Positions 30,689 to 51,357 of a stretch of 64,000 nucleotides of DNA are shown here, piece after piece. The notes below the pieces were generated by a model, which saw only the letters and a program-made list of their open reading frames with translations, was not told where the DNA came from and did not search any database. This DNA comes from Holothuria scabra (taxonomy: Eukaryota > Echinodermata > Holothuroidea > Aspidochirotida > Holothuriidae), in assembly GCA_037179385.1 (NCBI GenBank), contig CM074179.1, positions 36,755,224 to 36,819,223 of the forward strand. Reading direction: 5' to 3'. Numbering within the stretch: position 1 is the first letter of the stretch; each line of letters opens with the position of its first letter. Made by a program: the position numbers and the translations under genes.

Positions 30689-30819
30689 CTTCCTTGCATC
30701 AACAAAGGAAGAGATGGCCTCATTTATAGTTGCCTTCCTGCTCTTCCCTTTGATTTTATGTGATCCTGTGGGAAATATGCATGGCAAGCACTGCAAGGCA
30801 ATGTTGCAGACCTCATCAT
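30689..30819 (-). CDS. Outer SAM gene, exon equivalent to inner exon 9
   Basis: Between acceptor CTTTCTTTCAG and donor AAG|gtgaga; 131 nt, starting in phase 1. It encodes CLPCIFPTGSHKIKGKSRK and then SSFVDARK, matching the inner VLPYVLPTGTMTSGKKRIK and SFIDVQP. Joins exon 8 in frame. Confidence 0.68.
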
Positions 30820-31236
30820 CTGAAAGAAAGGATACAAAACAAAAAAGTTTATCCATAAACATGCAGTTTTAAAACTTTTTAATATTTTGACAGAGTTTTG
30901 CTTTTGAAAAGCTCTTTCATAACGGATAAGAAGGCAGAACACCAAACTGGGAAATTGATTGGAAATTCACGATACAATGACTCGCCGCTGTTTAGTGTAT
31001 CCTTCTTTGGTGGCGGCAAGTACAAAGCTGCATGAAAAAGTGTTGCAGAGTACATACGAAGTGTGAAAATGGCCAAGCTGCAACAGAAAACTGCTCTAAT
31101 TCTATGGAAAAACTGTTACTGGGGCATTAAATATATCAAAACAAGCCTCACAAACTAATGCATTACAGCTCACTTTTCATACATGAACAACCTTATGACA
31201 TAAATAAGGATGAAGTGTAATTTCTGTTGTTCTTAC

Positions 31237-31387
31237 CATTATTGTTGTCAAGCTGAACATCAAGATGACGGGACCAGTCATTCTGCTTGTCGGCATACTG
31301 TAGGATATTCTTTGCGAGTCCTGTGGTCCACAAATGAAATAAGCAGTCTTCAGTGCCTGGCTTGAGGACTGCAAAATCTATGCTTAT
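31237..31387 (-). CDS. Outer SAM gene, exon equivalent to inner exon 8
   Basis: Acceptor TTGTGTTGTCTAG and donor AATG|gtaaga. Its length, 151 nt, is identical to the inner exon 8 and it has the same phases (0 to 1). It encodes ISIDFAVLKPGTEDCLFHLW, aligned with VEQDFKIMYPTKENKLYEVW, and ends in a tryptophan-containing helix like the inner copy (DWSRHLDVQL against SWQKYLQLPL). Confidence 0.68.
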
Positions 31388-31804
31388 CTAGACAACACAA
31401 AGGTTACAAAACATATCAGGGAGTCAGCCAATTTCAAAATCACCACATATGCCATAAAAAGGAGCATCTTGACACTGTTTACCTCAGCATAATTCTTTAG
31501 TGATAAGTTCAGAGTAAACCTAAACTTTAGCCAATATTAGCTTTTACAATATGCTAACATTTTGGAAATCCAGAGTTCACTCAAAGCAGTCATAACGAAT
31601 GTCATGAAAGTAAATTGATAGAACTACCTTTGATGAAAAAAAATTCAGGTAATTGTCTTTTTTATACAGTTAAGAGTTCGGTGAGAGGATAATTATATTT
31701 TGATAATGTAAAAGAATAGTAAAATCTACACTGCCTCATGTAATTTTCATTTCGAACATATTCAGTGCTTCCAAGATATCAGCACATGAATTTACCTTTG
31801 TCAC

Positions 31805-32384
31805 TTAAAGGAGATGACAAGAATGATCATTTCAGTATCAAAATTGAGAAGTAAACAAAACCTTCACCCAATGCAAAAAACCCCAACTTCATAGCTTATT
31901 TCGTTCTCGAGATATCACCATTTTTATCATTTACATGGGAGCTGCCATTTTCCAAACAAACTGACTTGTAGCAAGTCGATTTTGACATTTCAGGCTCACT
32001 TTGTAAATGAGATGTTTTTGTTTTCCTTTGTATTTTGTTTCATTGTTATGCTCCACACAAGGTTAGCATGTTCTTGTTGGTATCAGATTACAAAATTACA
32101 GGACTCACTGTGTCATTCTGAAATTATTGTTTATATAATAGCTGGACTTTTGGGTAAAAAATCAAATTAAATTACAAAGAAATACATAACTTTTGAAAAT
32201 AAAGTGAGCCTGTGACATCATAATAGACTTGCCACAAGTGGGGCATGGCAGCGCTTCTGCAAGTGATAAGAATTGCGATATCTCGAAAACCAAATAAGCT
32301 ATGAAGATGGTTTTTTTTGTATTGGATTGAAAATTTTATTTCCAAGTATGTTACTGAAATGGCTAATGTTGTCATTTCCTTTAA
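31805..32384. mobile_element. Foldback element with TTAA ends
   Basis: Inverted arms of about 200 bp: left TTAAAGGAGATGAC, right reverse complement TTAAAGGAAATGAC. Shared inner blocks are TTCATAGCTTATTT, TCGAGATATC, and AGGCTCACTTT. TTAA at 31805-31808 and 32381-32384 may be the target duplication, pointing to a piggyBac- or Kolobok-type mover. There is no coding capacity. It lies in the outer gene's intron between exons 7 and 8. Confidence 0.7.
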
Positions 32385-32992
32385 AATGAATTTCCAACAA
32401 GCAGAACTGGTAGCACCAACTCACACTTATTGGACTTGTTCTTTTTTTCAGTCTGTTCTTTTGATCCTAAAATAATAGACAGACTAATGAATTTCTTTCA
32501 AGGAATGAGAGGTTTGTGGAATCTTGAATCAACATTTCAATTACAGAAGGCTTCCTATTAAACATATTTTCAGTCAATGTAAGCCTTGTACCAAGGTTTG
32601 TAGCTCCTGCTTGCTTCAAATATGTACTGAATGAAACAGGTAATGAGGAAAATTTGTATTAAATTTCTCTACCAGATATCCGAGAGTTTGCATCTTTATT
32701 TGTTAGAGTTAGCCCTAATACAAACAATGCATGCCATCACATACCGTCCTGAATATTAAGGCATAAAAAAAAAGAAGAATGTGTACATTATGATTCATTG
32801 CATATTGTTTTTTTCCAGCTCATCCTCTTGCTTAATGTTAAAAACAGGTATCTGTCTCGCAATCCAAATAAAATTGGTGAATAGAATTGCATTTACTTAA
32901 ATTGCTAAAACATCAATGACTTGCCCCACCATGCAAACATCCCACATAGAAAACCAGTCGACAGACATATGTACAGTACAATGCATGCTTAC

Positions 32993-33183
32993 CAAGCCTG
33001 GGGTATCAAGGAGTCGTGGATACAGCAAAAAGAGTTCCTTCACAGGTTTATCAGGATTATTTTTTATCCTGGAAAGCCTTGTGTGCGCTGTTTTTCTGTG
33101 GTATTCCCTGACTTGACTTAACGGCTCCTTATTGTGTTTTAACCACTGGCTCATAGCTTCCACCTCTGCAGGATCAATGGCTT
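32993..33183 (-). CDS. Outer SAM gene, exon equivalent to inner exon 7
   Basis: Acceptor TTTTTATTCTAG and donor GGCTTG|gtaagc. It encodes SQWLKHNKEPLSQVREYHRK and YPRLLDTPGL, matching SWLKSNRQPISQVKEYMAK and YPRLLDTPGM. It needs one base from the preceding exon (phase 1), but the only upstream exon found in this copy (exon 2) ends in phase 0. Direct 2-to-7 splicing would therefore shift frame. Exons 3-6 are missing. Confidence 0.68.
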
Positions 33184-33397
33184 CTAGAATAAAAATAATG
33201 AAAAACGCTGAGTCTGTGTCGGAAGCACTTTGACTTAGATCTTTTCTTTACAGAGAAGGAAAAGGAAGATGATTCAGCATCAATGAAAATTAGAAAGAGA
33301 GAAGTTTGAAGCCTGCTGAAAACTGATAGATGACAAACTCTGGCTCAAGCAAAATTGTAATACTGTTTTCTGATTCTAATCATTATGAAAGGACCTG

Positions 33398-34303
33398 TCA
33401 AATCAGAATGCAGAATTCATTGTGTTTGCAGTATTCCCCATCATGGAAATCCTCCATCAATCCATTCTTGCTTGGTTCATGCTTTCTGATGCTTTCCATA
33501 TACCCATTACTTTCTAAGATCAGTTTCATAAGTGGTTTTATGGGCACATACTGGAATGAAACATTTCTTCATACTTGCGCTACATTTCCAGTTTGCCTAT
33601 TATTCCTCTGATAAAATGCTACTGCTATTGAAACTTCTCTTGGTGTGAGGAACATTCCACTGTCTATAAAATATTTTCTCCTCATATAATCCCCCTTAAA
33701 CCTGCCAAATGTGTTTTCACAGTTTTCAAAATCTTCCATTAAAGCACAGAAAGTGTTGTCTTCAGGCTGAATCATGTTAGCCTCAGCAAATTGGGAAGTT
33801 TTATGTTTCTAAAAACCTACAATATCTTCCAACAAATCAGACATGTGGTCAACTACACCATGGATTGTTGATTGTACTACACTACTGGAAGATAACAACA
33901 TTGCAAGAAATATGGCTATTCTTTGTTCTATTTCAGCTTTGTCAAAGTCATCCCAATTTTCATTGTTTTCAACATATTCTTCATCTTCTTCAATGTTTCT
34001 GGCTATGGGTTGATTGTTTTCAAACATACCTGGTTCATAATCACTTGAATTTTCCATGACTTCATCTGCTTGAGGAGCATGAACCTCTGTATGTTTTGAA
34101 CTCAAGTGTGCTTTAAATGTTGAGACATGATTTTTGAATGTCCTAGCACAACCATCTTGTGCACAGATAACTGACTGAGTAAAGACCCTACCAACAACAA
34201 GGTGGTGGAAGTTTCTAAAATGCCAGATTAAACGACTTGAGTCACCAAATATAAGCTGTCCACATTTGAAACAAACAAACCCCATTTTGCTACAGTAGTT
34301 CAC
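33398..34303 (-). pseudogene. Outer CACTA transposase remnant (C2H2 zinc fingers plus N-terminal third)
   Basis: It aligns with residues 1 to about 300 of the intact transposase at 38410. The alignment runs from MGFVCFKCGQ through the second finger CAQDGCARTF, an acidic linker, SSVVQSTIHGVV, REVSIAVAFYQRNNRQTGNV, YVPIKPLMKLILE and DFHDGEYCKH. In-frame stops lie at 33809-33811, 33569-33571 and 33398-33400. Faint similarity may continue to about 33330. The catalytic domain is absent, apparently removed by the same deletion that took SAM exons 3-6. Unlike the intact copy it keeps all four ligands of finger 1. It starts about 57 nt inside intron 2, the same position as in the inner element. Confidence 0.75.
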
Positions 34304-34342: not shown

Positions 34343-34473
34343 CTCATTGCATTCAAACTGCTTCAGCTCCTTAATCTGTCTGGCAGCTTTCATTCTTGGT
34401 CCAAGAGGTTTTATTAGTTCTTTTAAAGTTTCACTGTCCAGCAGAAGGAAGCTCTCTTGATCAATGAAGTTTT
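34343..34473 (-). CDS. Outer SAM gene exon 2 (C-terminal half of SAM domain)
   Basis: Acceptor TTATTTCCTTTCAG and donor GAG|gtagca; 131 nt, phase 1 to phase 0. It encodes ENFIDQESFLLLDSETLKEL and the SAM signature LGPRMK. This is nearly the same as the inner exon 2 (ENMIDKESFLLLDNEGLKEL, VGPRMK). Its phase matches exon 1 at 53025-53091. Confidence 0.75.
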
Positions 34474-34819: not shown

Positions 34820-34925
34820 CACTCTAAAACAAGTTCAGGAGAGTTGTGTAGAAAATGCTACACAACTCCTGGGTAAATTTTATTTACCCAACGTTGGTTG
34901 TCTTTTGCACAACAGCTGTGTTACC
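34820..34925. repeat. 5' subterminal region of inner CACTA element
   Basis: The terminus is followed by two palindromes: AGAGTTGTGTAG with CTACACAACTCC around a short loop, and GGGTAAATTTTATTTACCC. GCACAACAGCTGTGTTACC comes next. The motifs are shared with the 3' end of the same element and the miniature at 25228. Confidence 0.7.
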
Positions 34926-35109
34926 TAGTAGTCAAACAAAATGTCGACTAAGACAAATTCAATTTATTTAATTTATAAAAGTAACTTGAAGCTCTTGAAA
35001 TTCCAAAGGATTATTTATATGACCTTTCTAAACCTGTAATATACAATTTAGGAATTTTTTTTTTAATAAAATATTAGACTTAAAATTTGCTTGAAGCTTC
35101 TGGCAAATT

Positions 35110-35230
35110 AAGCGGGAAAGTTAATAATTGGCGCGTTTTTTGGTCTGTATACAGTGTATGTATGGGAGGCACACCAGCGACTGCGCTTGATCGTATACGT
35201 ATATACCGCGGTACGTACGTAAATTAACGT
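35110..35230 (+). promoter_or_regulatory. Candidate promoter of the inner SAM gene
   Basis: It contains AAGCGGGAAAG and ATTGGCGCG, both close to the E2F consensus (TTTSSCGC either way), then CCGCGGTACGTACGT about 140 bp before the ATG. The outer gene has CTTTCCCGTTAAC and GTACGTACGT upstream of its own exon 1, and the 20385 ORF has GTACGTACGT. No TATA box is obvious. Regulation by E2F is only inference from short motifs. Confidence 0.3.
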
Positions 35231-35354
35231 ATAGTACTACTGTAGACTGTGCCGACTACTGTTCGCAGCCGAATAGGCCCACTCTTTTTTTCTAGAATTC
35301 AGCGGTACCTTTTTTACAAAGTTAGACAATACTAATTACGAAGGTGGTTTCGTA

Positions 35355-35421
35355 ATGGATGAGTTTGTGTCTCAAAAATTGGAAGAACTGGGTCTGGCTT
35401 TGTTGCAAGATGTTTTTGAAG
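35355..35421 (+). CDS. Inner SAM gene exon 1
   Basis: ATG at 35355, 22 codons plus one base, donor GAAG|gtaacg. It encodes MDEFVSQKLEELGLALLQ and the next four residues, the first SAM helix. The outer copy's exon 1 has the same length (67 nt) and phase, which supports this start. Confidence 0.75.
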
Positions 35422-38400
35422 GTAACGTACTACTACTACTAACTTTAGTGAGTAGCCTACCAACAGTAACACTAACAGTCTAGGCCCAGCCTAGCCTAGG
35501 CTAGGCCCAAGCCTACTGTACATTAATAGTAGTATCGTAAGTCGTATACAGTAAGGCTACAATATGAGTATATCCTGCTCTATGGGCTACAATAAGTAAT
35601 TGTAATATTGTACTATTACTATACTAGTAGCCTAAGTAAATAGCCTAAGTGCTACTATCGTTAGAAGCCTATTGCCCTGAATGTACCTAGTAGTTATTAG
35701 CCTAGTAGTAGTAGTAGTAGACTAGGCCTAACGTTAGTACTAGTAGCACTAGTATAGTACTAACTACTATAGCCTAGCCTACTTGAAAATGAAATTTGAA
35801 ACTGAATTTAGGCCTAGGCTAGTGGCCTAGGCCCTAGGCCTAGACTATGTGGCCTAACACTAACAGGCCTAATACTGATAGCCTAACTTAGTGAATAGCC
35901 CCGACCACAGTCGTACAAAGCGAAGGTAATGTTGCATTTTTTTCATTTGATTTTGATAGTTTTGTGAAAGATCATAGGCCCTAGGCCTAAGATACTTACA
36001 GAATTTGTGATATGACTGTGACTTGGAGAAAATATTGTCAATTTTGGGTTTTTTGTCCTAGGTGTAACACTAATTGCCCTTATGGAGTGAATTTCGGTTC
36101 TGTAGGCCTAGGCTAGGCCTACAGTACAGCACACAGCTAGTTCCTAGCCCTACACTATATACGGTAGACCTAGGACTAGGCCCTATATAATGTAGAACGC
36201 TCTTTCAGATAAAACCACACACCTAGGCATATTTTGATGATTTTACCCTCACTGAAACCTGAAAACCTCATGTCAAAACAATTAGCATCCTCCAATTCTT
36301 GGAAATTTAATTTTCTGGTTAAAATCACTTCAAAACAGTAAAGATTTCAGCGGAAACCTTTTTGCAGGGGACCACGTGATGGCTGCAAATTTTAAATTAA
36401 AATAAAATTTGCATATGTCTCATAACCTAGCCTATGCCTAGTAAAAATTAGTCATAATTGGAAATGGCCCTTGAATTTCGGGAGATAGCATTAAGGCAAG
36501 TCCTAAACTTGATCCCCGCCCCCCCCCAACACACACACCCACTTAAAAGTAAGAGAGAGCATTTTGATATACATTATAATAGGCCTATGACTTGTTGCAA
36601 ATTCTGTAAATTAAATTCATTTTAATAATTAAATTTGACCCGAACTGTCTGAGATCGTTTGCAGAGTGGGTAGTGCCACAATATTCTCTACGTTTTAGTA
36701 TATTTGTATTAGAAATACATTTCTGTGATTTAAGACAATTAAATGTGATCGTTGTTCCCTATACTGTACCTGATATAACCTGCTTGTTTTGTTTGAAAAA
36801 AGGTTGTTTACAGAAGTCTTGTAAAATGTGATAGCAGTACCAGTAGTACAGTACCATAGGTACAGTTACAGTATGTCTTTACATTGTGTGTAACATGTCT
36901 GGAAAGGCTTTTAAACAGGGTTGTTGACTTTTTTTATTTTTTAAAAAAAAATCACAAAAGTCAGATTTTAATGATTTTAATTGGATTTTAATGATTTTAA
37001 TCAGATTGTTTCTATTTATTTAAATTTCTAAAAGATATGATATCGCCAAATTTCCTGGATGCTAGTGTGTATTCCATAACCTACAAAAAATAAAGTTTTC
37101 AGCTTCCAGGGCTATCATATGCAAAACAAAACAAAACCGTGTGGAAAAATGAAAATAAGTATAGCCTACTGTAGCAGTGTGTATACAAGAAGACAACCCT
37201 TCCATGATTGTATGATAATATGGGACACAAGACCAAAGTATTGTGCTGTATGAAAATGTTGTGTTGTGCATTTCAAAAGAAGAAAATTTGGAGAAAACAA
37301 CAATGTATTCCCAAAAGAAAATGCACACCAACAATCCTTTCAGATAGTATTGAGTAGGCTATAGGCATACAGTAGGTTGAACTACAGCAGAGAGTCTAAT
37401 TAATTCCTGGTTAAAACAGGGAACTGGTACTCCTTGTTACAGAACTCATGGTGTACTTTACATTTATTAAACAATCCATCCATCAGTTCTCAATATTTCT
37501 TTTACTAGGACTTGATAAGATCTCATTGGGCATGGTATGGGTTTTGATATGAGGGTTGGTAAAATGCAAAAATAATTGAATCCCATGTCTGGTTCATGGA
37601 GCACTCTAAGAATTTCATAAGAATCCTGTCTTTGAATCACCCCAAAATGAGCACCTTGCACCACACTGTGGTACAGTTATTACTGACATATTTGATATTT
37701 CCAAGTACTAACAAGTAACAACTTGTTGCTAGGACAGTGTTGGTGGGGAAGTTAGAATGCTGTACCTAAGCCTACGCTGTAGATTGTCTAATACTTACAG
37801 TTTTATTTGAGGGTCCTGCTGTCCTCAACCAACTTCATATAATGCCGACCATCACTATGAATTGGGTTGGTTTTTTCAGTGAAATATGGTACATCTCACT
37901 TGAACTGTAGTATTGACAGTCTATGGAGTCAACACTGATGTATCTCTTACTAGGGGTGCACATTGTGTTTAATCATTCTAAACTGTATTGTTTCTTCAAA
38001 TTAGTTGAACTCAGGGAATAAACCAACCATAAATATCTTTTTCTGACCATAAATGAAATTTTTTCAATGCAGTGATTTAAATCAATGATTTTCTGATAAA
38101 AATCATGTGATTAAAATCCCGATTTAAATCAGTGATTTTAATCAGGTGATTTAAATCAAACAACTCTGCTTTTAAATGAGTTTTTTATTATAAAAGTTTG
38201 CTTTTTCCATTGTTTTCAGAAAATATGATCGATAAGGAGAGTTTTTTGCTTTTGGACAATGAAGGTTTAAAAGAACTTGTCCCCAAGGTTGGACCAAGAA
38301 TGAAGCTGCAGAAATATTTAAGGGAATTACGAACAAAGGATGACCAGGTATTTCTACACATCCTGTACTGTACATTATAATTTTGAATGTGTAAAAAAAC

Positions 38401-41400
38401 CTACACAAGATGGGATTGGTGTGTTTTCATTGGGACAACATTATTGAAGGAAATTTGAAGGAACTCTTTAAGCACTTCAGATCCTTCTCACTTATTGCAG
38501 GAAGTGAGTTTACTTGTTATGCACGTTGTAACCAAGATGGTTGTCAAAGGACTTTCAAAAAAAGTTACTGCTTTAAGAGGCACATCAGAAAACAACACAG
38601 AAATTGTCTAGATGAAGATATTATTGTCAATGATCTGCAAAATGCAAATGGCAATTTTCCTGTAGAAAATAATGAAGAGGAATTAGAATTAATATTTGAA
38701 GGTAATGTAGAAAATGAAAATGATGCAAATGAAGATTCAGATGATGATCAGGATTTGCTAGATGAAAGGGAGCTCAAAGAAAGGTCACTTATGATGGTTT
38801 GTAGATTGAAAGCTTCGAGCAGTGTAGCTCAGAGTACTGTAGCTACCATTGTGGAAGATATGTCCCAGATTGTGGAGGATATTGTTTGTTACTTGAAGGA
38901 GAGCACAGAACGATTTCTACAAAGGCAACATGTTGATACAAGAAGTGAATCTGCCCTTCAGCTTTTTGAACAATTTGAATTATTTAAAACCCCATTCCAT
39001 GGTATTGAAACTGACTACAAACAAATTCAGTATTTGCTTAAATCCAAAAAGTTTATTCCTCCAGTTGAGAAGGAAATTGCCCTTGGCTATGCACAAAGAA
39101 CACATTCAGTCACAGGAGAAGTATTACAAGTACCAATGCCATATGTATTTAATTATGTTCCTATCAAAGATAACATCAAACTTCTTTTTGAGACCCCTGA
39201 CTTTAGAGAATGTCTTGAAGAACACCAACCAAGCACAGATGGAGTGCTTCGTGATTTTCATGATGGGCAACACTGTGCTTCCCATCCTCTTCTCAATTCT
39301 CCAAATACGCTGCAAATAATTCTGTACTATGATGATATTGAAGTGACAAACCCTTTAAGTCCAAAAGCTGGGACCCACAAACTGGGAGCATTTTACTACA
39401 CTTTCAAAAATGTCCACCCTAAACACCTTTCGACGCTTAACCACTTTTATCTAGCAGCACTCTTCAAATCATCTGATGTAACTGAGTTTGGTTATGACTC
39501 AGTTTTAAGACCCTTCGTAGATGAATTGAAAGAACTTGAGAACACAGGTATTGAAATTAACTGCGAAAATTTCGAGGGGACAATAAAAGTAGGATTGGCA
39601 CAAGTAGTAGGAGACAATCTTGGTATTAACACCCTGTTTGGATTCGCTCAAGGTTTTACAGCAAATTTTTTATGCAGAAAATGCAAAGTTCACCGTGACA
39701 ACATCAGACAGGATACAAGGTGTCAGGGGCTTCTTAGAACAAAAAGAAACTACAATGATGACTTGGAGTTGAGCAACTTACCTTTGACTGGAATTCGTTC
39801 CCAATGTCTACTAAATGAATTAAGCAGTTTTCATGTTGTTAAAAATTATGCGCCAGATATAATGCATGACATTCTTGAGGGTATTTCCCCACTGGAAATG
39901 AAGCTAGTCCTTCACCATTTGATTTCAAATGGTAACTTTGATTTAAATACACTGAATGGAAGGATAACAAGCTACAATTATGGCTTTTCTGATAATTCAA
40001 ATAAGCCATGTATCTATTCATGGCAGTCACTGCTAAATCCAGATGGATCTTCTGGCCAGAATGCCGCTCAAATGTGGGCTCTCCAAAGACATATAGGTGT
40101 GATGATCGGTGACCTCATTCCAGAAAATGATGAGTATTGGGAACTAATTCTTCTATTGTGTGATTTGATGGACATTATTTTTTCTCCAGCTATTACACCT
40201 GGTGAGTGTGCTTTTCTGGAAACTCTCATCTCTGAACACCATGAACTTTTTCTGGAGCTCTTTCCAGACCGGCACCTTAAACCCAAGCACCATTTCATGC
40301 TCCATTATCCTCTTGCAGCTTTAAAAATTGGACCACTCATTCATTATTGGGCCATGAGGTTTGAAGCGAAGCACAACTTTTTTCGCCGATTGTCTCATAT
40401 AATCTGCAATTTCAAGAACATAACCAAAAGCATGGCGTATAGGCATCAAATGTATCAGTGTCATCAAATGCTCTCAAGGAAAACATTCAAAACTGCTTCC
40501 TTTGAATTAGGACCTGGTTCATCTACCCTTCTCAGAGCTCTACCGGACTGTAATCTTTTGTCCAATTTACTTGGAATGTATCCATTGTTTGGTGATGTTT
40601 TTATAGCCAAATGGGCAAAGGTGTATGGGATCACTTACAGGAAAGGTATGATGGTTGCTCATTCAAGACCAGCAGAACTTCCAGTGTATGGGAAAATCAA
40701 AGAAGTTATTTTTCTCAGAGAATCTGTTAACCTTATTCTGGAAAAATGGGAGACATTATATTTTAAGAAGCACTTTCATGCATATATTGTACAACCTGTT
40801 CAGCCAATTGTCACTTTGGTTTCAACCATTGATAATCTGCTTGATTACCATCCCCTGCATGCAGTCCGCTCTTACACACCTGGTGATAGCAATTACTATA
40901 TTAGTCCTCGTTACCGAATTTAAGTTTCACCTGGTGATCTAGCCTAGCAGAATTATTGTGAGAACTCTTTTGTTCAATATTCTACACGGCTTGTACTTGC
41001 TAAATTTTATATATGACTATATGGGAAGGCATACCTGACTGTATCTCAATGAAATTTAAAAACGCAGATTTCACCACAGAAACAACCAGATGTGACGGAA
41101 GATTTTGATACAGATGAAGACACACAGTCAACAGCTTCTCCATTGGCTTCTTCATCAAGCGCTACCTGTAGTCCAATTATTAAATCAGCATCAGATGCAC
41201 CAGATTTACACAATTTGGATTTGCCCTCCACTTCCAAAGAAGGCCATCAAGCACATAAAAGAATGAAATTTTCAAACAAGATGTTTGTGAGTATTAAAGT
41301 GTGCCTAAAAGTCTAGAACTAATAAAAAGTGTTCTGTATATTTGATCCAACACCCATTTTCCTAGCTTGCTCCTTTGCTGGGATATTAAATGTTGAAGTT

Positions 41401-44400
41401 TATTCACTAGAATCCAAAAAATCCATTGCACAATAATTTGCAAGATTCTTGTACAACTCAAGAGTTAATGCTTTGTAATGTTTGTACAGTATGACCTGGA
41501 ATGCCCCCTGTTTTCTTGTGTACCATGCTGGACAGAGAGGGTTTGTTTAGTCAAGTCACCCCAAAGCAAGAATGCAACCACATTTTGGCAAAAAGTGTGG
41601 TAGTTTCCAGAAAAACAAAAAACTACAAAAGTATGGTAGTTTGTTGTTAAAATATTACAACAACCATGTGACAAATTAGTATACAATCTACCATTCTAAA
41701 CTAACTATATAAAATTCAACATTTTATATCTCACCTTAGGAATGTCCTCTAAAGATGGGAGTTGAACTATTGGAATTCACTTTTCATATATTTTTGAATT
41801 TTCAGACTTCAGATACACTTTAAATCTGTTATGATTTCACTACATGTCCAAACAGAGGTGTTACCATGAAGTGTCTACCTAGATGAAGAAAGTACTATAG
41901 CTTAAGTACTTCCCAATTGAAGCTATGTGCAGGAACTTTAAAGTTACATAGTGTATGATTGTACAGAATTTTTCAAACAGATGAGGAATTTGAGCAAAAG
42001 TATTAAAGGGGAAGTGTACGCAAAATCTGCAATTTCATATGAAGCAGAGGAACTAAATTTACGCAAGGTGGTGAAAATTCCATTCAAATCGGACTTGTAC
42101 TTCTCGAGATACAGAATCAGCAAATGAAGTTACAAAATGAAGATTTGTGCCTAAAAGTGAGCTTGAGGGCAGCACCACTTCCTCACATCAACAAGGAATG
42201 CTTTGTTTCTTAATGTTTTTTTCAGACTGTTGTATTCACCATGAGAAATGTGAAGGTTGTTATGTTCCGGCCCATGCCCCTAATGTAGTCACATTTTGGT
42301 AACATGAGATTTTTCAGGAGAAAATTGGTTGTAAAATTTAAATAATTTAAACAAAAGACCATTCATTAATGTGAGATGTTATGTCATATGTGCTTACTGC
42401 AAGTTCACTTTACCTGCTCATATTTTGAAAATATGGCTCAGTTGTGGCTCACTACTACCACTGTCAAAAATATAACTGACACTCACAGTGTGCTAGGTAT
42501 CTCCCTGCCAAAAAACTAGTTTACAGTGAGAGGTTGACCATGTTTTGGAGCAACAGTTTTGTATTGTTCAATAAATGTTGTTGCCTTAACCCTAAATGTT
42601 TGCCAATTTATTGTTGTTTCAGAGCGTAAAGGATGTTCTTCTAAGAGATTATGAAGGTGACACCATAATTGAAGAACTTACATCAGGATTACTGAGCGGG
42701 AAGTGCAGACGAAAAATGGTGCAGCTGTTAGTTTCAGAACTAATAGAAGTTTTTGGTGAAAGGTAAGTTCAACCAACAGTCCAACACCCATTTTTCAGGA
42801 CTTGAAAATTCTGATGCATGCAAGTGTGATGGTGCATCCCTTGAATCACTGTGAGAAGTATTGTTATACAGTGTATATGTAGATAAAGAATGGAAAGTCA
42901 GATAAACCTTTTAAAGTTTAACAAAGCAGCACACAGTTATTTTCTAAGGAGTGGGACTTGTAGCACCCTTGAAATCCAAAACTCAAGGCCTGCTTTTCTA
43001 TTATTTTTTTGAGTTTTCCATGCAATTGTTGTGTTTTTGTCCATGCTACTGTAGGTCACATACAACCACCAACCTCCTCCTTAAAATCAAACTTAGAACA
43101 TGTGTGGCTGCACTTATTTACCGTGGTCTCAAGAAAAAAATTCTCAAAAGTTTTTTTTCTTTTTTTTTTAATTTAAAACCATACTTGTTCGTTGTTACTT
43201 GGTTACCTATTAGCTCAGTTGAGTAATTGATAGTGACAAAGACTTGAAATGGTCAGCTAGTTTTACCTTACTTTTTTCTTATCACTTTGCAAGGCCAAGT
43301 GCAGATATCAAGATTCAGCTGGCAAAAAAGATCATTGAAGAATTCCCTCTAGTTAAAGATAGCATTGGGGAAGGCTATGTAAGTATTTCTTTCTCTGAAT
43401 TGGCAGACAAAACTTTAATAGGTTTAGGTATTCATTGTTAAATGACTAAGTTTAGTGGCATGGAGAATATTTCCCTAAGTACCCAAACAATTACAAGTTA
43501 CTGTATTTCTTCATTATATTTTTCCACTTGACGATTTGGCTCCTTGCATGGTTACTTTGTGTAATAAGAAATTGCTCTTCGTATATATTGCAGCTCTGAT
43601 AAGGAAAAGAAAGTGCATTTCTTATTAAGCACTGATATGGTAGTTATTTCTAGCACAATGGGTTCTCTTTTCATTGAAATAGGAATCATTCTACACACCT
43701 GGTTCTGCAAAACACCCTGCTTGTGGGTTCTTGGAGCTACGTCTAGGAAATGTAAGGAGAAAATCTACTCCGAGCAAACATTCCAAACCTAAAACTGAAG
43801 CTACTGTCACACAGGAAGTACAAGTAGACTCTGGTAAGTGATGAGACTGCTATACCCTATGTCAGAATGTAGTAAATAATGTGATTTAACTTTCTCCCTC
43901 ATGTGGGGCATGGACATGAATGAATTGCATGAATTGCTTCCTCCCCTAGTATGCCTGAGCATTGAGCATTATTTTCTGGTATGGCACCACTACAATTATA
44001 AATTTGTTATCTTCGCTCTATTGTAATTTCCATTGTTTTCACAATTTTAACATTTTGAGCAAATGTTACCCCAAATGTCACATGCTAAAATACTGTAAGT
44101 CCACTGTAAATCCTTCCCTTGATTGCTAATCTAAATAAAAGGAATAAGTATGTGAAGGGCTTATTGTGCAGTCAAGCTGTCAGTTTCTCCCAAAGGGTGG
44201 GTATAATATGCTTCATATGTGACATTGTTTGTCTGAATTAATTGGCGTTCATGACCAGATAGGAGTGTGTGAACAAACTTAGTCCCCAGTAGTTATAAAT
44301 CTACAGAGGGGAATGATGTAGCTGGTCCTCATTGTGTCTGCATGTTTCTTTTTCATAGCTAGACCAGTTCGTATATGCCTTAATTACCCCATGGGTTACT

Positions 44401-47400
44401 AGCCTCCCTAATTTTCTTAAAATGTCATAGATCTCTCAATTAGAAATGTTTCAGGAATTCCAAGCTCTCCCAAACACTTTGCATGTGAGCCACCTTTCAC
44501 AACACCAATGTATCCCTATTCCCCTCCCCTTACACCACTTTCCAGGACAGTCTCCTCTCCCACCTCGAAGAAAAATAAAGCAAAAGACCTTTGTGGTGAC
44601 AGATTGTGCATTCTCGTAAATGAGTTGGCCTTACAGTTTAACAAACTTGGGCATGAATATATCACTTGCTGGCATTATGAATAGTTTAACATGTGTCTTA
44701 TTGTTTTTGTAGAGAATAAACTCACAGAAGAAGAGAGTAGGACCCTCATTTCTTGGCTTAAGTCAAATAGGCAGCCTATTTCTCAGGTCAAGGAATACAT
44801 GGCAAAGACAGCACCACAGAGACTGTTGGCCGTGAAGGAAACAGAAGACTTGGGGAAAGTTCTTAAAGAGTACCCAAGGTTACTGGATACACCTGGCATG
44901 GTAAGTAATTAACAAAATATGTCAGGTGAAGACGTGAGATTCAAACATTATTTCAGGGAGTTGTCAGTGAAAGAGATCCAACATTTATCAGTCCTTTGAA
45001 CTAAGTAGTTGCAGACATTAAACTGCATATTGTCTTGCTCTTGAAACTTTTTTAAGGCTTGAAAGGAAATTGGTAATAAAGGCTTTGTCGTCTGCTACAT
45101 CTCAAAGACCTGTCATGATGATCCACTGCCATTACATTGCCAGTCGTAGAGGAAAATATATTAATTTCATGCTTGCGCAGCTCTTCGTCGCGTATAGAAT
45201 TTATTCAGATAGCTGTTACACAGATTTTTAAAAAAATTTCCCTCTTCGAAGATACTTAATTTTAATGCGGAAAATTATTAAGGTAGAACTGAACATTGGA
45301 TCTCCTTCCCTGACAACTCCCTGATTATTTCATGCTTATTTTTTTAAACACTTAACACTTTCTAATGATAATGACCCTGCCTCAACAGCACTAACTGGGT
45401 GATTACTGATTTCGTTGTTTTACTTTTGCTTGAAAGTCCATCAAAGGTCCATGGTTGAAGAAGCAAAATATTTTTAGTTAATACTTGCTAATAAGGCTTG
45501 TTATGTAGGTATCTATTATTCAGCTTATTACTGCTATTGAGTGTACATGAAAAGTACATCATTTACATGTAAATGACTCAAGCCACATCTGATCCACAAT
45601 TGGTTTGGGGTCTCTGAGATTCTTTTGCTCTAGCAGCATCTCTAAGTGCCCCTACAGAGTGTTTTAGCTGAAGACTATGCTTAGACATATGAGGTTGGCA
45701 GCAAGGTCTCTTCATGCTATGGTACTTCAGATGGTTAGGTCCTCCAGGCAGACACCTCAGTCAGCTGATGCTTCCAAAGTTGGACAACTTGACATATTTA
45801 GTAGTGAATAGTAGTTTATTTATTAAAGTTATCACTTCTTATTTTTTTTATTCTTTTTACAGGTTGAACAGGATTTCAAAATTATGTATCCTACCAAAGA
45901 AAACAAATTGTATGAGGTGTGGGAAACAAAAAGCAGCAAAGTGCTTGAATGGGCTCATGCTCAAAGTACTTCATGGCAGAAATATCTGCAACTTCCTTTG
46001 ACGCTAACTGAAGGTAATTATAGAACTCCATTATCGTAAATTTCATAAGTATGGGCATTTGAAATTTATTGAAATATCCTGTGCATGTTTTTGTTACATG
46101 TGACTGAATTACTTGCAAATCTGAAATCTCATATTTTCACCTCTTACATGTCAAGAACTCTAATGCACAGCATTTCGCCCTTTTAACAGGCAACTGAAAA
46201 TTATTTCCTACAAATTGAGTACTGCACCATGTATGCTTTCAGCAGTTCAGTTCTTTTTTTATTAAATCTAAGCTGAAAAGTTTCTTTAAAAACAGTGGTG
46301 AAAATAAGACTATGAAATCTTTTAAAAAACTTCTAACAAGATTCCAAAAATTAACTGGTTTCAACCATATTTTTATTCCAGCTAGGTTGTATTAAGGGAA
46401 TAATTTCATGTTCAAAGCTTGCCAAACAATTTTGAGGTTTCTAGGCCTCTCTAATACAAAATCATTTAAAATGTGAGTAGTAAAATGCGTTGCGACACTG
46501 CAAAAATTATACCAGGAAACAGGGTTGAGAAATGTATACGGGGTATGCAAACCTGATTTAGCCTGTGCAAATTACTTTAACCAAACTAAAACCTAATTTT
46601 TTTAACCTATTTTTACAGAACTGATGGCTTTATGTAACAATTTTAGAAATTCATTGTTGGTTGTTTTGTAGAAGGTATCTAAAGTTGTATTTGTTTCATT
46701 AACTTAGTTAAATTTGTGTTCCCAAAGCTCATTAACATATATCAGAGAGACATTTGTCTTTAACTCTTCATATGATTTTTTTTTTCAGAGGAAACCAAAT
46801 TAGTTGCTTTCCATGTACTCCCATATGTTTTGCCAACTGGGACGATGACCTCTGGCAAGAAGAGGATAAAGTGTACGAAATCCGAATCGGTCCGTTCATT
46901 CATTGATGTCCAACCAGTAAGTATGGTAGAAATTACATGTAAATGCAGAAAAAGGTGACTGTGCTTTCCTTGCAACCAGGTCCTGAGGTAGAAATGTTAG
47001 TTGTGGGTGTCCAAATTTGAAAAGTGGGTTTCCAAATATTTGAAGGTAATTGATTTTCAAAGCATTGTGCAAAAATGTTGGCCGCCATTTTGGAAAATCA
47101 CCCATGCAAAGGACATTTGGCTGCCAACCCCCTGCTGACAACCTAAGGTTGGGCCACTATTTACTTTTTTATGAGAGATTTCCTCACCTTAACTCCCAAA
47201 TTCTGATTTTCTACCTCAGCTTGGATTGGAGATAAACAATTTACAGCAGAAAGAGTATTTATATATTTTAATAAAGCAATACATGCACTGTACATGTTCT
47301 TACTAGGGGTGCACTGGATTTCAATCTGGTATCTAACTAGAACTTCTCTAAATCCCTTCAGATTATTAGATTTAAAAGGCACCTACAAATTAGCAATTTT

Positions 47401-48932
47401 ATAATGAATTTAAAGGGGAAACCCCTTTTTTACAGCTCAATAAACTACACATTCTCATCTATACTATCATGCGGGTCATGTTCAGGGGTTTCAGGGGTCA
47501 CCACTTTCAGTGATGTCATCGGTGAGGGTTTCCTCTCATGTTGTAGGTGTCAGCCATTCCTAGTACTCACCAAAACCGTGTTACATAAAAACCATACTCT
47601 TAATGGGTGGGGAGTGTTGGGGACACTGTAGCTGCATGGTGCCTGGATTTTTTGTGAACTGTTGCTGTATAGATACCTGGATATTTTACTCAATGGTTCT
47701 TGACTAAGTTGTTGACAGTTGTTGTATTGAGCCAGGGAGTTGCTAGAGAAGGAGAAACAACACGTTCTATAGTCTCTTTGAGGCAATGTTGGTTTCCAGC
47801 GATAATCTTGCTTTTATCCGCCAAATTCTTATCCCAATTCTTAGATAAACAAAGATTTTAGACAAATTATCAAAATTCCAATGGAGAGACGTATTCCTAA
47901 CACTCTACTCGTTAACATTTTGTTGCCAGTCGTCATGGAAAATTGTGAAATTGATGTCATTTGACGCTATCCGAGACGCAACCCATTGTTTCATTTGAAG
48001 ACAGCAACAATTTCCCTGCAAATTACTTTAATTTTATTGTTTCTTAATGATGGCAAAATTGTTTATATCTGAGGTAAAGGTATAGACTTGAACAATGCTT
48101 CCATCTAATGACGAAAGGGGAGCAATTGAAGCACCTAGTTTAATCGTTTGTTCCCAGTCGTTCTATAGAAATTGTTATTTTAAGCTTTGCCATTGGCAGA
48201 GACAAACCTCTATATCAAAGGATACACAGACAATGCCATTGTTTAAGGATTACGCGAAGGAGAATGGAAGAAATGATTATTAAAAGGTCTTAGTCACAAG
48301 AGATTTAACAATAGAAACAAAGGGACCTGTCAATCAAATAGTGGTGCCTCAAAAGATATAATCTGTTTCAAGTACATATTGTCTGGAAAAATTTGTTCGT
48401 TGTATCTCCCTCTCTAGCAACCCCCTGATTGAGCAAAGTACATCACGGAATGAACATTGACATGTTCATTTGAGACAAGATTAAGAAAACATGTAGGCTT
48501 AATGGTTTGTATTTGCTTTGTAAGGGATATTCTTCTCACTGTGTATTGTATTGATTTATCTTGTTTTTCTGGTGACTATTAGTTAGATGTTCTCCTCTAT
48601 TGTTTCACTTTCAGGTTGGGATAAATCTTCCAGAATACCTTGGTAATTTGGAGAAAGATGGAGGGAGAAAACAGCCCTTTGTACTTTTACTTGGTGAAAA
48701 GCTGTCTCCTTCGCAAGTCTTTGTTATTATCGAAAGGACTGCACTGCCACAGAACAGTGTTCTCAGTGCAGTTGATGCCTGCTTTAAGGCATTCCAGATT
48801 TTAAATTTTGAGTACCCACCAGCTTGCAAACCTGTGTGGGAATTTATCCAGCATGGGTGCTTTCAGCTTCCAGGTTGTGGCAGTATTACTTCCCTCACAC
48901 GATCTCTGTGTAGTGCGATCAGTTTAGATTGA
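35355..48932 (+). CDS. SAM-domain protein (SAMD3-like), ten exons, second protein of the inner CACTA element
   Basis: The exons are 35355-35421, 38220-38347, 41080-41286, 42623-42762, 43294-43378, 43683-43833, 44713-44900, 45863-46013, 46789-46916 and 48615-48932. All introns are GT-AG, all phases agree, and the sum is 1563 nt, or 520 residues plus TGA. Residues 1-65 form a SAM domain (FLLLDNEGLKEL, VGPRMKLQKYLREL). Residues 66-134 are an acidic, Ser/Thr-rich linker. About 135-260 hold the LLVSELIEVFGER, IIEEFPLVKDSIGEGYESFY and GFLELRLGNVRRK blocks that I associate with predicted SAMD3-like proteins of fish and invertebrates. The rest carries SQVKEYMAK and YPRLLDTPGM. The molecular function is unknown. 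SAM domains usually mediate protein-protein, sometimes RNA, contacts. By position it resembles TnpA of En/Spm. A host gene invaded by a transposon is the alternative. Confidence 0.8.
35440..36185. repeat. GCCTAGGC/TAGTAGTAG-rich tract in intron 1
   Basis: CCTAGGCCTAG-type palindromic words recur at least ten times (for example 35486-35512, 35812-35845 and 36103-36122), mixed with TAGTAGTAGTAG runs. Low-complexity, intron-confined sequence with no open frame of note. Confidence 0.7.
36916..38168. mobile_element. hAT-superfamily non-autonomous element with perfect 8-bp target duplication
   Basis: The ends are CAGGGTTGTTGA and, reverse-complemented, CAGAGTTGTTTGA. The 8-bp sequence CTTTTAAA is exactly duplicated at 36908-36915 and 38169-38176. 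Inside each end lie repeated GATTTTAATCA/GATTTAAATCA words. Eight-base duplication and CAG-starting ends are hallmarks of hAT. No hAT transposase is visible in the 1253 bp. It lies in intron 1 of the inner SAM gene, ending about 51 bp before exon 2, so it supplied nearly all sequence just upstream of the acceptor region. Confidence 0.88.
38220..38347 (+). CDS. Inner SAM gene exon 2
   Basis: Acceptor CCATTGTTTTCAG and donor CAG|gtattt; 128 nt, phase 1 to 0. It encodes ENMIDKESFLLLDNEGLKEL and VGPRMKLQKYLREL, the core and C-terminal helix of the SAM domain. The transposase ATG follows 62 nt after the donor. Confidence 0.82.
38410..40923 (+). CDS. CACTA (Tnp2-like) transposase with N-terminal C2H2 zinc finger
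   Basis: One uninterrupted 837-codon frame in intron 2 of the SAM gene. An N-terminal C2H2 finger uses C40, C45, H58 and H63. A preceding finger-like block (residues 5-27) has lost most ligands. An acidic linker follows (about 75-125). The core carries the order seen in the tnp2 family: YYDDIE with D308/D309, a mid-region VVGDNLG with D402, the CRKC knuckle at 422-425, MHDILEG at 485-491, KPKHHFMLHYP near 624-634, and WAMRFEAKH with E652. The last recalls the WMYPFER block of plant CACTA proteins. D308/D309, D402 and E652 are my candidates for the catalytic triad, unproven. The expected role is cutting and joining at CACTCT termini. The start Met aligns with the homologous ATG in the outer copy. 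No stops or frameshifts are seen. Confidence 0.8.
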   Translation: MGLVCFHWDNIIEGNLKELFKHFRSFSLIAGSEFTCYARCNQDGCQRTFKKSYCFKRHIRKQHRNCLDEDIIVNDLQNANGNFPVENNEEELELIFEGNVENENDANEDSDDDQDLLDERELKERSLMMVCRLKASSSVAQSTVATIVEDMSQIVEDIVCYLKESTERFLQRQHVDTRSESALQLFEQFELFKTPFHGIETDYKQIQYLLKSKKFIPPVEKEIALGYAQRTHSVTGEVLQVPMPYVFNYVPIKDNIKLLFETPDFRECLEEHQPSTDGVLRDFHDGQHCASHPLLNSPNTLQIILYYDDIEVTNPLSPKAGTHKLGAFYYTFKNVHPKHLSTLNHFYLAALFKSSDVTEFGYDSVLRPFVDELKELENTGIEINCENFEGTIKVGLAQVVGDNLGINTLFGFAQGFTANFLCRKCKVHRDNIRQDTRCQGLLRTKRNYNDDLELSNLPLTGIRSQCLLNELSSFHVVKNYAPDIMHDILEGISPLEMKLVLHHLISNGNFDLNTLNGRITSYNYGFSDNSNKPCIYSWQSLLNPDGSSGQNAAQMWALQRHIGVMIGDLIPENDEYWELILLLCDLMDIIFSPAITPGECAFLETLISEHHELFLELFPDRHLKPKHHFMLHYPLAALKIGPLIHYWAMRFEAKHNFFRRLSHIICNFKNITKSMAYRHQMYQCHQMLSRKTFKTASFELGPGSSTLLRALPDCNLLSNLLGMYPLFGDVFIAKWAKVYGITYRKGMMVAHSRPAELPVYGKIKEVIFLRESVNLILEKWETLYFKKHFHAYIVQPVQPIVTLVSTIDNLLDYHPLHAVRSYTPGDSNYYISPRYRI
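41080..41286 (+). CDS. Inner SAM gene exon 3
   Basis: Acceptor TTTCACCACAG, donor ATGTTT|gtgagt; 207 nt, phase 0 to 0. It encodes an acidic then serine-rich linker (TEDFDTDEDTQSTASPLASS) ending in a basic KRMKF stretch that could be a nuclear signal. Absent from the outer copy. An alternative acceptor lies 12 nt upstream. Confidence 0.65.
41321..41326 (+). terminator. Candidate intronic polyadenylation signal
   Basis: A canonical AATAAA 35 nt after exon 3 and about 400 nt after the transposase stop. It could end a transcript that includes the transposase ORF, leaving the longer transcript for the SAM protein. There is no direct support. Confidence 0.35.
42004..42480. repeat. Interspersed repeat in intron 3 (TTAAAGGGG end)
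   Basis: It starts TTAAAGGGGAAGTG and shares ordered blocks with 12236-12672, including TTTCAGACTGTTGT and TTTACCTGCTCATA. Probably a non-autonomous DNA transposon. The right end is not clear. Confidence 0.45.
42623..42762 (+). CDS. Inner SAM gene exon 4
   Basis: Acceptor TTGTTGTTTCAG, donor GAAAG|gtaagt; 140 nt, phase 0 to 2. It encodes EELTSGLLSGKCRRKMVQLL and VSELIEVFGER, a helical segment typical of SAMD3-like proteins. Confidence 0.75.
43294..43378 (+). CDS. Inner SAM gene exon 5
   Basis: Acceptor CACTTTGCAAG, donor GGCTAT|gtaagt; 85 nt, phase 2 to 0. It encodes IKIQLAKKIIEEFPLVKDS and IGEGY, continuing the conserved block of exon 4. Read-through open sequence past the donor is intron. 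Confidence 0.73.
43683..43833 (+). CDS. Inner SAM gene exon 6
   Basis: Acceptor TTCATTGAAATAG, donor CTCTG|gtaagt; 151 nt, phase 0 to 1. It encodes ESFYTPGSAKHPACGFLELR and LGNVRRKS, the arginine-rich end of the conserved SAMD3-like block, then a polar linker. The polypyrimidine tract is weak. Confidence 0.72.
44713..44900 (+). CDS. Inner SAM gene exon 7
   Basis: Acceptor TGTTTTTGTAG, donor GGCATG|gtaagt; 188 nt, phase 1 to 0. It encodes ISWLKSNRQPISQVKEYMAK and YPRLLDTPGM. It has a clear counterpart in the outer copy at 32993-33183. Confidence 0.78.
44954..45323. mobile_element. hAT-like MITE in intron 7
   Basis: The ends are CAGGGAGTTGTCAGTGAAAG and, reverse-complemented, CAGGGAGTTGTCAGGGAAGG, followed on both sides by AGATCCAA. 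The flanks share ATTATTT (44947-44953 and 45324-45330), a 7-bp duplication that may be 8 bp with one changed base. No coding capacity. The same family as 47733-48427. Confidence 0.78.
45863..46013 (+). CDS. Inner SAM gene exon 8
   Basis: Acceptor TTCTTTTTACAG, donor GAAG|gtaatt; 151 nt, phase 0 to 1. It encodes VEQDFKIMYPTKENKLYEVW and a second tryptophan helix. Same length and phases as the outer counterpart at 31237-31387. Confidence 0.78.
46789..46916 (+). CDS. Inner SAM gene exon 9
   Basis: Acceptor GATTTTTTTTTTCAG, donor CAACCA|gtaagt; 128 nt, phase 1 to 0. It encodes VLPYVLPTGTMTSGKKRIK and SFIDVQP, matching the outer exon at 30689-30819. Confidence 0.76.
46983..47219. mobile_element. 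Short TIR element in intron 9
   Basis: Inverted ends CTGAGGTAGAAATG and, reverse-complemented, CTGAGGTAGAAAATC. The 237-bp interior has no coding capacity. No clear target duplication was found, so the superfamily is unassigned. Confidence 0.5.
47733..48427. mobile_element. hAT-like non-autonomous element in intron 9
   Basis: The ends are CAGGGAGTTGCTAGAGAAGG and, reverse-complemented, CAGGGGGTTGCTAGAGAGGG. The flanks share ATTGAGC (47726-47732 and 48428-48434). 695 bp, no transposase. It belongs with 44954-45323 by its ends and by the same 7-bp flank pattern. Confidence 0.78.
48615..48932 (+). CDS. Inner SAM gene exon 10 (terminal)
   Basis: Acceptor TTGTTTCACTTTCAG; open in phase 0 for 105 codons to TGA at 48930-48932. 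It encodes VGINLPEYLGNLEKDGGRKQ, SQVFVIIERTALPQNS and a cysteine-containing C-terminus. It aligns with the outer exon at 29883-30203. No AATAAA was seen up to the element end; ATTAAA occurs near 50737 and 50866. Confidence 0.8.
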   Translation, partial: VGINLPEYLGNLEKDGGRKQPFVLLLGEKLSPSQVFVIIERTALPQNSVLSAVDACFKAFQILNFEYPPACKPVWEFIQHGCFQLPGCGSITSLTRSLCSAISLD

Positions 48933-51047
48933 CAGGGATTTTGTTTGTTTTTTTTTTTTTTTTTTGGTTTGTTTTGTTTCATCTTTCGTGTGCTACATTC
49001 AAACATGTTGTTGGTTGGTGCTTTTCTTTTAGTATTAAGATTGCTGTTGCAATCGTTGATGTTATGCAGGGTCACCTTGAGGTTTTGCAGACCCACAATT
49101 TGTTTGAATTATAGAAAAAAAATCTATTACAGAACTGTTACAGTGTCAATGCACTCAGTCTCAGATGTATTGTAGGTTTGTTTATTTTGCAGCCAATATA
49201 ATCCTCAGTCTTTATTTTGAGTTAGTGAAGAGATTTATAAAAGGGGTCATTCCTTGTCAAATCACCTAATTGAAACAAAAGAAATCTCTGAAAGTTTCAT
49301 TCTGGTTTTCTCTGTATGCCAGACAACTATCTCAAGAAATTAAGGGCTCTGGGTATTACACTAACAGAGATATTGATCCCTAAACTTGGCGAATCGTGTG
49401 ACGAAAATAGTAAAAAAAGGAAAATTTGGGCCACTATAGGAAGCCATAACTCCACTAAACAACATTTGAAAAGCTTCATATTACAGGAACCTGTTTTATG
49501 GGATAGTTTAATTATGTTTATATCATTACATGCTGGTGGGTTAAGCATTTGCTGAGAAATTGGTCCTTAAAATTGACAAAAAAGGCAAAGTGTCATTTTG
49601 CCCCTGATTTGCAAAATTTCAACAAATTTTAATTCGGTCAAAATTGGAGAAATTTCACTAAAATTTTCAGGAGATGCTTTTTTATCACTGTCTACACATA
49701 CAAATATTTTGGGAATTTTTTCGAGCAACAGCCTCCGGGATTTGACATGGAATGACCCAAAGGTTAGAGAAGGCTTTCAGACTAAAAAAAAAAACACACA
49801 ATGCTTTATACAACTTACATTACTGCCTTGATCTGTAAGCAATCCGTCTATTAAAACAGATCCGTGTATTCCATCCAGTCCATTTAGTATACAGTACTTG
49901 AAAGTTTATAGAGACTCTTATATATCTTGTATAATTTTAGACAAGGGAAATTTAGTTTACATAAAAAGTACTTATTTGTGGGCAACAATTTTGTCCTACG
50001 TTGATATTTTTTATCAAATGGTCTTCTATATTTTAGAAGGAAATCTGTCATGATATGAGGCTTTTCTTCTGCAGTATTACAATGAATATATATGCCAGCA
50101 GCATAAAAATACAAGGTGATTCTCAACCAGTACTGAGATATGAAAACCCTTTTCTTTGCAGTTTGTATGATCGCAATAAGAAACTTGCCGTCCATTGATG
50201 ATGCACCTGCATGCAAAGCTGTAGAACAAAAGATGTCACATGCACATGCATGCATGGTATTGCTGTATTTGATGGATCAGTGCTTCACAGCAGTGCCTGT
50301 TTTTTAGTACTGGACCTATATTTTTACAACATCCTGGCATTTATGTTTACCAGAATCTAGAATGCTTGTGTATGAACAAGATCTTTCAACAATGTTCCAT
50401 ACTTTATGTACCATTCGTAAATTAAATAGTTGGATTTTCTTTGTATTTGAGTGGAGGGTAGAGGGAAGGAATATTCTGATGTTTTTAAATGTTTTTATTT
50501 ATCATCATGAGAAACAACTCGTTCATTAATTTTGCCATTAGAACAACTCCCTTTTTGCATAAGAAAATGTTTTTAGGAGAGGAGGGATTGCAAACCTGGA
50601 TGATTTTGCAACCTGTAATACTGGTAAAAAGGAAGAGAGAGGAAGAGTTTGGGCAAACAGCTTTACACTGGTTTGAAATGCAAAGCATGTGTTCATCCAG
50701 TAAACTTGTTAAGCAGATATATGTTCATCTTAAATATTAAAAGACAGTAGTAGTATGCATAGCTCATGCAAAGATCAAGTTGTATAAATGTCAGTTAACT
50801 CAGAGAGGTTACTAACATACTGAAAAGTTCAAACTGGCATTTGTGGCTGCTTTTAATTCAGATTTATTAAAGTAGATATGTCCAACTCAGTTCAAGGCTT
50901 GATTTGTGTGTTTATTATTTCTTTTCTTTGACTTTCACAACTCACATGAAGCATCATGGACAGTAAAAGTGGTTACATAAAACCATTTCTAAAAAGATTT
51001 GAAATCGAAATGCATGTACTCTTGAAGCATACTGCAACCTTTCATAT
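48933..51047. other. 3' untranslated or non-coding part of the inner element
   Basis: About 2.1 kb between the SAM stop codon and the subterminal repeats. Open frames of up to 123 codons on either strand show no domain or homology that I recognise. The outer element has a comparable 2.1-kb non-coding tail. Confidence 0.5.
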
Positions 51048-51357
51048 ACACATTGTGTAAAATCTACACAACATTACCCAACAGCTGTGTACATGCTCCT
51101 ACCGGCGTTGTGTAGAAATGACACAATATTGTGTAGTTTTACTCAAGTTCCTGTGCAGTGTTTGCACGTGTTACTTATTTAACATTTGCACAACTGTTGT
51201 GTGAAAATTACACAACTGTTGAGTAAAATTACACATCAGCTGTGTAAAACAAATTTACACAACCATGTGTCATTTCTACACAACACGGGGTAGGTGCACT
51301 ATGTACACAGCTGTTGTGTAATTTTTTACACAACTTGTGAATTTTTTTTTTAGAGTG
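51048..51357. repeat. 3' subterminal repeat cluster of inner CACTA element
   Basis: Nine exact TTGTGTA or TACACAA words within about 310 bp, in both orientations, plus variants such as CAGCTGTGTAC. It ends TTTTTTTAGAGTG. The density and mixed orientation fit the binding-site clusters inside CACTA ends. Confidence 0.78.

Follow-up and report, generated by a model that had tools for sequence, protein, structure and literature searches.

Introduction

Plant CACTA transposons combine a common terminal tip with inner repeats that differ between elements, and these inner repeats are bound by TnpA-type proteins (PMC2613891, excerpt). In animals, the CACTA-like element SmTRC1, described in 2006, makes short products lacking the transposase domain (PMC1636069, excerpt). 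The CMCT group has been defined by a DDE transposase in which C(2)C and H(3-4)H motifs lie between the second D and the E (PMC12730594, excerpt). Here we describe E1, a CACTA-type element of 16.5 kb in Holothuria scabra, located at positions 34820-51357 of a 64,000-nucleotide stretch of contig CM074179.1 (the window; all positions are given in its numbering unless another contig is named). Our analysis indicates that E1 is probably a two-gene transposon in which the transposase is nested in intron 2 of a gene for a SAM-domain protein, this protein acting as a TnpA-like end-recognition partner. There is good support for the SAM gene being conserved between families as an integral component of a mobile CACTA-type unit, and the same nesting is seen again in divergent families of this genome and in gene models of sea cucumbers and nemerteans.

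Results

Gene structure of E1

An earlier note on the window, made from the letters alone, had described a ten-exon gene for a 520-residue SAM protein in E1 and a Tnp2-like transposase in its intron 2. Ten exons could be assembled from the window into a single frame of 520 amino acids (Table 1), with all nine introns bounded by GT...AG, and residues 3-60 of the product matched Pfam SAM_1 above the cut-off (E 1.7e-6, 28.8 bits, cut-off 23.0). The transposase frame comprises 842 codons from stop to stop (38395-40923), or 837 codons from the ATG at 38410, and it lies wholly inside SAM intron 2 (38348-41079), 62 bp past the exon-2 donor. When intron 2 is retained, reading on from exons 1-2 ends at a stop codon (38378-38380), 29 bases ahead of the ATG of the transposase.

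The length and position of the transposase were thus as previously described, whereas its own match to Pfam Transposase_21 (PF02992) fell below the cut-off (E 0.12, 12 bits, cut-off 28.6). The label "Tnp2-like" is retained because of relatives carrying PF02992, the motifs and the fold. Among the relatives, this domain is present in P0032, which has 40% identity over 100%, and in P0042, and 5 of 25 aligned proteins match it at E up to 0.01. The predicted catalytic residues are D308, D402 and E652, accompanied by C422-x2-C425 and H628-x3-H632; in the alignment of 63 sequences D308 is present in 62, and D402, C422, C425, H628, H632 and E652 in all of them. The E1 transposase consequently shows the motif arrangement by which CMCT transposases are defined. 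Its core was modelled with a RAG1-like fold, and residues 697-831 (window 40498-40902) with a BAH-like fold near DNMT1 BAH1. Since none of the 25 aligned proteins matched Pfam BAH at E up to 0.01, the BAH assignment is drawn from the modelled fold only; this tail is a possible chromatin reader. As to a viral origin, one scan of viral contigs with the E1 transposase returned no relative.

Ends of E1, sister copies and the empty site

E1 begins with CACTCTAAAA and finishes with its exact inverse. The left tip is preceded by TTTA and the right one is followed by TACA, so that TA adjoins the element on both sides. The motif TTGTGTA occurs 9 times in the final 310 bp and 2 times in the initial 81 bp, and at most 3 times per sampled 310-bp stretch of the window outside E1. 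The 10-bp inverted ends, TA flanks and subterminal repeats proposed in the earlier note are therefore present, although the repeats are lopsided. With its CAC... tips, 2-bp TA duplication and subterminal repeats, E1 shows the traits of the CACTA/EnSpm (CMC, CMCT) group. The word CACTCTAAAA was observed 4 times in the window, 0.31 being expected, and 23,161 times in the searched genome (1.19 Gb, 31 contigs), in which the reversed word occurs 6,478 times.

Three sister copies of E1 were found, at C2:46.09 Mb, C1:37.82 Mb and C15:15.33 Mb, with 89-98% DNA identity in the aligned stretches. In the C2 and C1 sisters the similarity starts and stops at the TA adjoining the tips, and TA/TA flanks are shared by E1, these two sisters and two mini elements. 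The C2 sister sits within a 165-bp tandem repeat, and the three neighbouring units that cover its site (one truncated where the stretch ends) are uninterrupted and contain a single TA, which corresponds to an empty site. Joined ends at an empty site, set in the earlier note as a test of the element, were thus seen for the C2 sister, and chance ends for E1 were ruled out by the sister copies together with this site.

These data also bear on the explanation that a host SAM gene was hit in its intron 2 by a CACTA transposon, the outer CACTCTAAAA ends being coincidental. The transposase does lie in an intron, and many genomic SAM matches have no scored transposase nearby, but the homology between sisters stops at the outer ends and not around the transposase, the C2 copy has an empty site, and a SAM exon precedes the transposase in 25 further loci, including two sisters and E2, a second pair in the window. 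A host gene with an inserted transposon was rejected on the basis of where sister homology ends, and we regard it as extremely improbable.

The sisters at C2 and C15, on different chromosomes, have one common internal deletion that joins window position 38911 to 43989, and the C1 sister has a separate one, joining 38558 to 43773. Most of the transposase is lost in each deletion, together with at least SAM exons 3 to 5; the C15 sister additionally lacks roughly 1.3 kb from the region of exon 1 and intron 1. Since the same deleted form is present at C2 and C15, its occurrence on two chromosomes implies spread via products made elsewhere.

Recurrence of the nested arrangement

Comparison of the SAM protein with the genome gave 485 candidates, of which 83 matches, in 63 clusters, were scored. 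An upstream SAM exon was sought at 33 loci (30 loci, E2, and the C2 and C15 sisters). In 26 of them it was detected, at 33-239 bp before the projected transposase start, reversed controls giving 0. The positive loci form 14 groups by DNA similarity, and the order recurs with transposases whose identity to that of E1 goes down to 32-35%. A same-strand SAM match within 25 kb downstream was present for 18 of 51 transposase clusters (sisters counted), the random value being 0.08.

The arrangement was also recognised in annotated proteins. Among the best 120 of 147 transposase relatives, six have a match to the SAM protein as well (E up to 0.01): P0022 and P0023 from Holothuria leucospilota, P0054 and P0103 from Lineus longissimus, P0088, and P0050 from Merluccius polli, whose SAM match is weak (E 0.002). 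P0022 contains, one after the other, the SAM domain, the transposase and the remaining SAM protein; a gene finder that ran through a nested unit would give this order. The fused models P0022 and P0023 are suggestive only with regard to two spliced products from one promoter. Relatives of the SAM protein itself show 33-39% identity over 96-99% of its length in three of five cases (sea cucumber, fish). One relative, P0004, has 439 amino acids on a contig of 1,458 bases, which hints at a spliced transcript.

This conservation is relevant to the explanation that the SAM gene is a passenger, captured from the host by a CACTA lineage and without part in transposition. From such a passenger one would expect decay or variation between families; instead, conservation of the protein extends from sea cucumber to fish, and the SAM/transposase order recurs in the divergent families and in the nemertean gene models. 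Four loci (L060, L062, L065 and L066) in which the transposase start is present and the SAM exon undetected fit a passenger, and so do the deletion derivatives without SAM exons 3-6 at different sites, although all that these show is an ability of the products to act in trans. On balance we judge a passenger gene unlikely.

Family F2: the same tip with other repeats

A further family, F2, consists of eight loci (L022-L026, L029, L032 and L033) of 3.2 kb that are 95-99% identical; their SAM exon 10 shows 47-50% identity with that of E1. In the two loci extended downstream, the similarity at the right end stops at TTTTAGAGTG, followed by TA. The final 310 bp of these two loci contain 11 copies of TTGACC and none of TTGTGTA, whereas the same stretch of E1 contains no TTGACC besides its TTGTGTA copies. 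It is mainly from this combination of one tip with unlike inner repeats, as in plant CACTA elements, that we infer a putative end-binding role of the SAM protein.

Under a different explanation, the SAM protein would be a regulator or be directed at the host (e.g., as a silencing antagonist), and the transposase alone would recognise both tip and repeats. SAM domains typically mediate protein-protein contacts, and the transposase itself carries zinc-finger residues near its N-terminus (C40, C45 and H58, kept in at least 62 of 63 sequences) and a BAH-like C-terminus. We nevertheless find this rather unlikely. Plant TnpA is a partner protein acting on subterminal repeats, with little similarity between elements (PMC2613891, excerpt), and subterminal repeats wholly unlike in two families, together with a diverged SAM exon and an identical tip, would be expected of a co-evolving binder. 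This last argument is qualified by the F2 SAM exon being mostly broken.

Observations weighing against a two-gene element

Several observations weigh against E1 being a two-gene transposon with a SAM partner protein. Regarding the ends, the empty site is that of the C2 sister and not of E1's own insertion, and the tips of the C15 sister align, but its flanks are not TA and its left tip has one base changed. For the C5 family, no matching ends were detected within 3 kb on either side. Regarding the nesting, E1 and E2 match by construction, their own exons being among the queries, and they are counted in the 26 positive loci. The SAM exon was undetected in 7 of the 33 loci: besides the four named above, L070, L072 and L073, which gave no alignment to the initial residues of the transposase. 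Moreover, 33 of the 51 transposase clusters have no downstream SAM match among the 83 of 485 candidates that were scored. Regarding F2, a stop occurs within the SAM exon-10 match in six of the eight loci, and all eight are more than 25 kb away from any scored transposase; because of these stops and of the transposase not being nearby, the loci are likely defective copies, and their support for co-evolution of SAM protein and repeats is weak. Regarding the proteins, the structure model of the SAM protein is poor (pLDDT 53), with no DNA-binding fold visible, and the first zinc-finger pattern of the E1 transposase (residues 1-27, window 38410-38490) lacks the residues at positions 8 and 26 that are kept in 58 and 59 of the 63 sequences, respectively. 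From these two missing residues, the E1 copy itself may not be fully active.

A second pair, further tips and feature coordinates

E2, on the minus strand directly left of E1, is a SAM/transposase pair that has diverged and decayed and shows the same nesting. The E2 and E1 transposases share 34% identity, and no match was obtained in E2 for SAM exons 1 and 3-6. Since exon 1 of E2 was not found, E1 may have landed in E2's intron 1.

Short elements with CACTCTAAAA tips and TA flanks, of 402 bp (L001) and 381 bp (L004), differ from E1 in the inner sequence with which they start. At 25228-25350 the window contains a 123-bp miniature element, CACTCTAAAA...TTTTAGAGTA, with many TTGTGTA-like repeats, and a further CACTCTAAAA tip with such repeats lies at 19939-20445 on the plus strand. 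About 450 bp inside that tip a short frame, with an ATG near 20386, resembles SAM exon 1 by eye; no later SAM exons were seen beyond it. A cluster of TTGACC near 63.5 kb of the window was set aside, being repeat-like by eye and having no CACTNTAAA/TTTANAGTG tip nearby.

Table 1. Positions of the features of E1 and E2 in the window.
Feature	Positions	Strand	Remark
Left terminal inverted repeat CACTCTAAAA, TA before	34820-34829	+	same boundary in C2 and C1 sisters
Left subterminal region, 2 TTGTGTA	34820-34900	+	
SAM exon 1	35355-35421	+	start codon at 35355
SAM exon 2	38220-38347	+	SAM domain
Transposase, 837 codons	38410-40923	+	within intron 2
SAM exon 3	41080-41286	+	
SAM exon 4	42623-42762	+	
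SAM exon 5	43294-43378	+	
SAM exon 6	43683-43833	+	
SAM exon 7	44713-44900	+	
SAM exon 8	45863-46013	+	
SAM exon 9	46789-46916	+	
SAM exon 10	48615-48932	+	includes stop
Right subterminal region, 9 TTGTGTA	51048-51357	+	repeats in both orientations
Right terminal inverted repeat, TA after	51348-51357	-	boundary shown by sister copies
E2 SAM exon 2	34343-34473	-	
E2 truncated transposase	33347-34285	-	in-frame stops; 57 bp after E2 SAM exon 2
E2 SAM exons 7-10	29895-33166	-	sequence matches
E2 SAM exon 7	33166-32990	-	
E2 SAM exon 8	31378-31250	-	weak, E 0.03
E2 SAM exon 9	30826-30680	-	
E2 SAM exon 10	30203-29895	-	

SAM-protein relatives among annotated genes

The earlier note had also suggested that some of the predicted "SAMD3-like" genes of animals might be transposon genes. 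Relatives of the SAM protein are indeed annotated as genes in Apostichopus and several fish, but under the name "uncharacterized protein". Two SLIP-GC-like GTPases of fish, P0128 (Betta) and P0129 (Anabas), have an N-terminal SAM domain near that of the transposon (45% over 49 residues for P0129), and, judged by this likeness, their N-termini are possibly trapped exons 1-2. A profile of the transposon proteins matched human SAMD3 in two stretches (E 3.6e-8), and BLASTP of the E1 SAM protein alone gave E 0.034, in both cases with an approximate SAMD3 sequence; this similarity is treated as a lead only.

Discussion

We favour a model in which E1 would be served by a single promoter upstream of exon 1 giving rise to both products. 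Use of the exon-2 donor would remove intron 2, and the transposase with it, yielding the SAM protein, while intron 2 being kept or spliced otherwise would yield the transposase. The SAM protein, perhaps oligomerised via its SAM domain, would bind the family-specific subterminal repeats and from there bring the transposase to the common tip, where D308, D402 and E652 of its RAG1-like core are predicted to cut and join. The earlier note had taken the SAM protein for the animal counterpart of TnpA in layout. The layout does match that published for En/Spm (PMC2613891, excerpt); a TnpA-like action of the protein is likely.

The most thoroughly studied trait of plant CACTA elements, a gene for a DNA-binding protein that hosts an intronic transposase, thus has an animal counterpart in layout, conserved across families and provided with a recognisable domain. 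Recognition of the ends by an animal CACTA element becomes directly testable, as a common tip, unlike repeats and diverged SAM exons are found in one genome. Some of the annotated SAM-protein genes of fish and invertebrates are likely transposon genes, several of the models being fused with a transposase. Should the lead on SAMD3 prove right, one vertebrate gene would have a relative in a transposon. It is conceivable, and proposed here tentatively, that an ancient bilaterian two-protein CACTA system, with a RAG1-fold transposase bearing a BAH-type chromatin-reader tail and a SAM end-binding partner, gave rise to vertebrate SAMD3 and to the N-terminal SAM module of fish SLIP-GC-like nuclear GTPases. 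SAMD3 would then be a domesticated TnpA-like protein, and this would be a second case, beside RAG, of this transposon clade feeding genes to vertebrates.

Among described elements, maize En/Spm (tnpA, tnpD), with its relatives, resembles E1 in its CACT... tips, dense subterminal repeats, internally deleted copies and a transposase frame in an intron of a multi-exon gene, namely intron 1 of tnpA (PMC2613891, excerpt). E1 differs from it in the TA 2-bp duplication, the SAM domain of its second protein and the location of the transposase in intron 2; the likeness proposed here between the SAM protein and plant TnpA concerns layout and probable role. SmTRC1 of Schistosoma mansoni and animal TRC elements are likewise CACTA-related, with a large transposase frame and shorter products without transposase domain, but in the excerpted account of SmTRC1 its PrA and PrB are without relatives in other animal or fungal elements and its tips begin with CCC (PMC1636069), whereas relatives of the second protein of E1 occur in sea cucumber and fish, and its domain is a named one. 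The fungal EnSpm-like ESTA shares the TA duplication and has, like E1, a transposase of CMCT type that contains the C(2)C and H(3-4)H motifs and resembles RAG1; its extra cargo is a TET/JBP gene and not a SAM gene (PMC12730594, excerpt). Among the matches listed in our literature search, none mentioned a SAM gene within a CACTA element in its title or the opening of its abstract; a description in Repbase only may exist.

RAG and Transib transposons generate a 5-bp target-site duplication, in contrast to the 2-bp TA at the C2 empty site. RAG-like transposons such as ProtoRAG (PMC4411706, PMC7204232) also combine two genes and a RAG1-fold transposase core, but RAG1L and RAG2L are convergent neighbours, whereas the two genes of E1 are nested on one strand.
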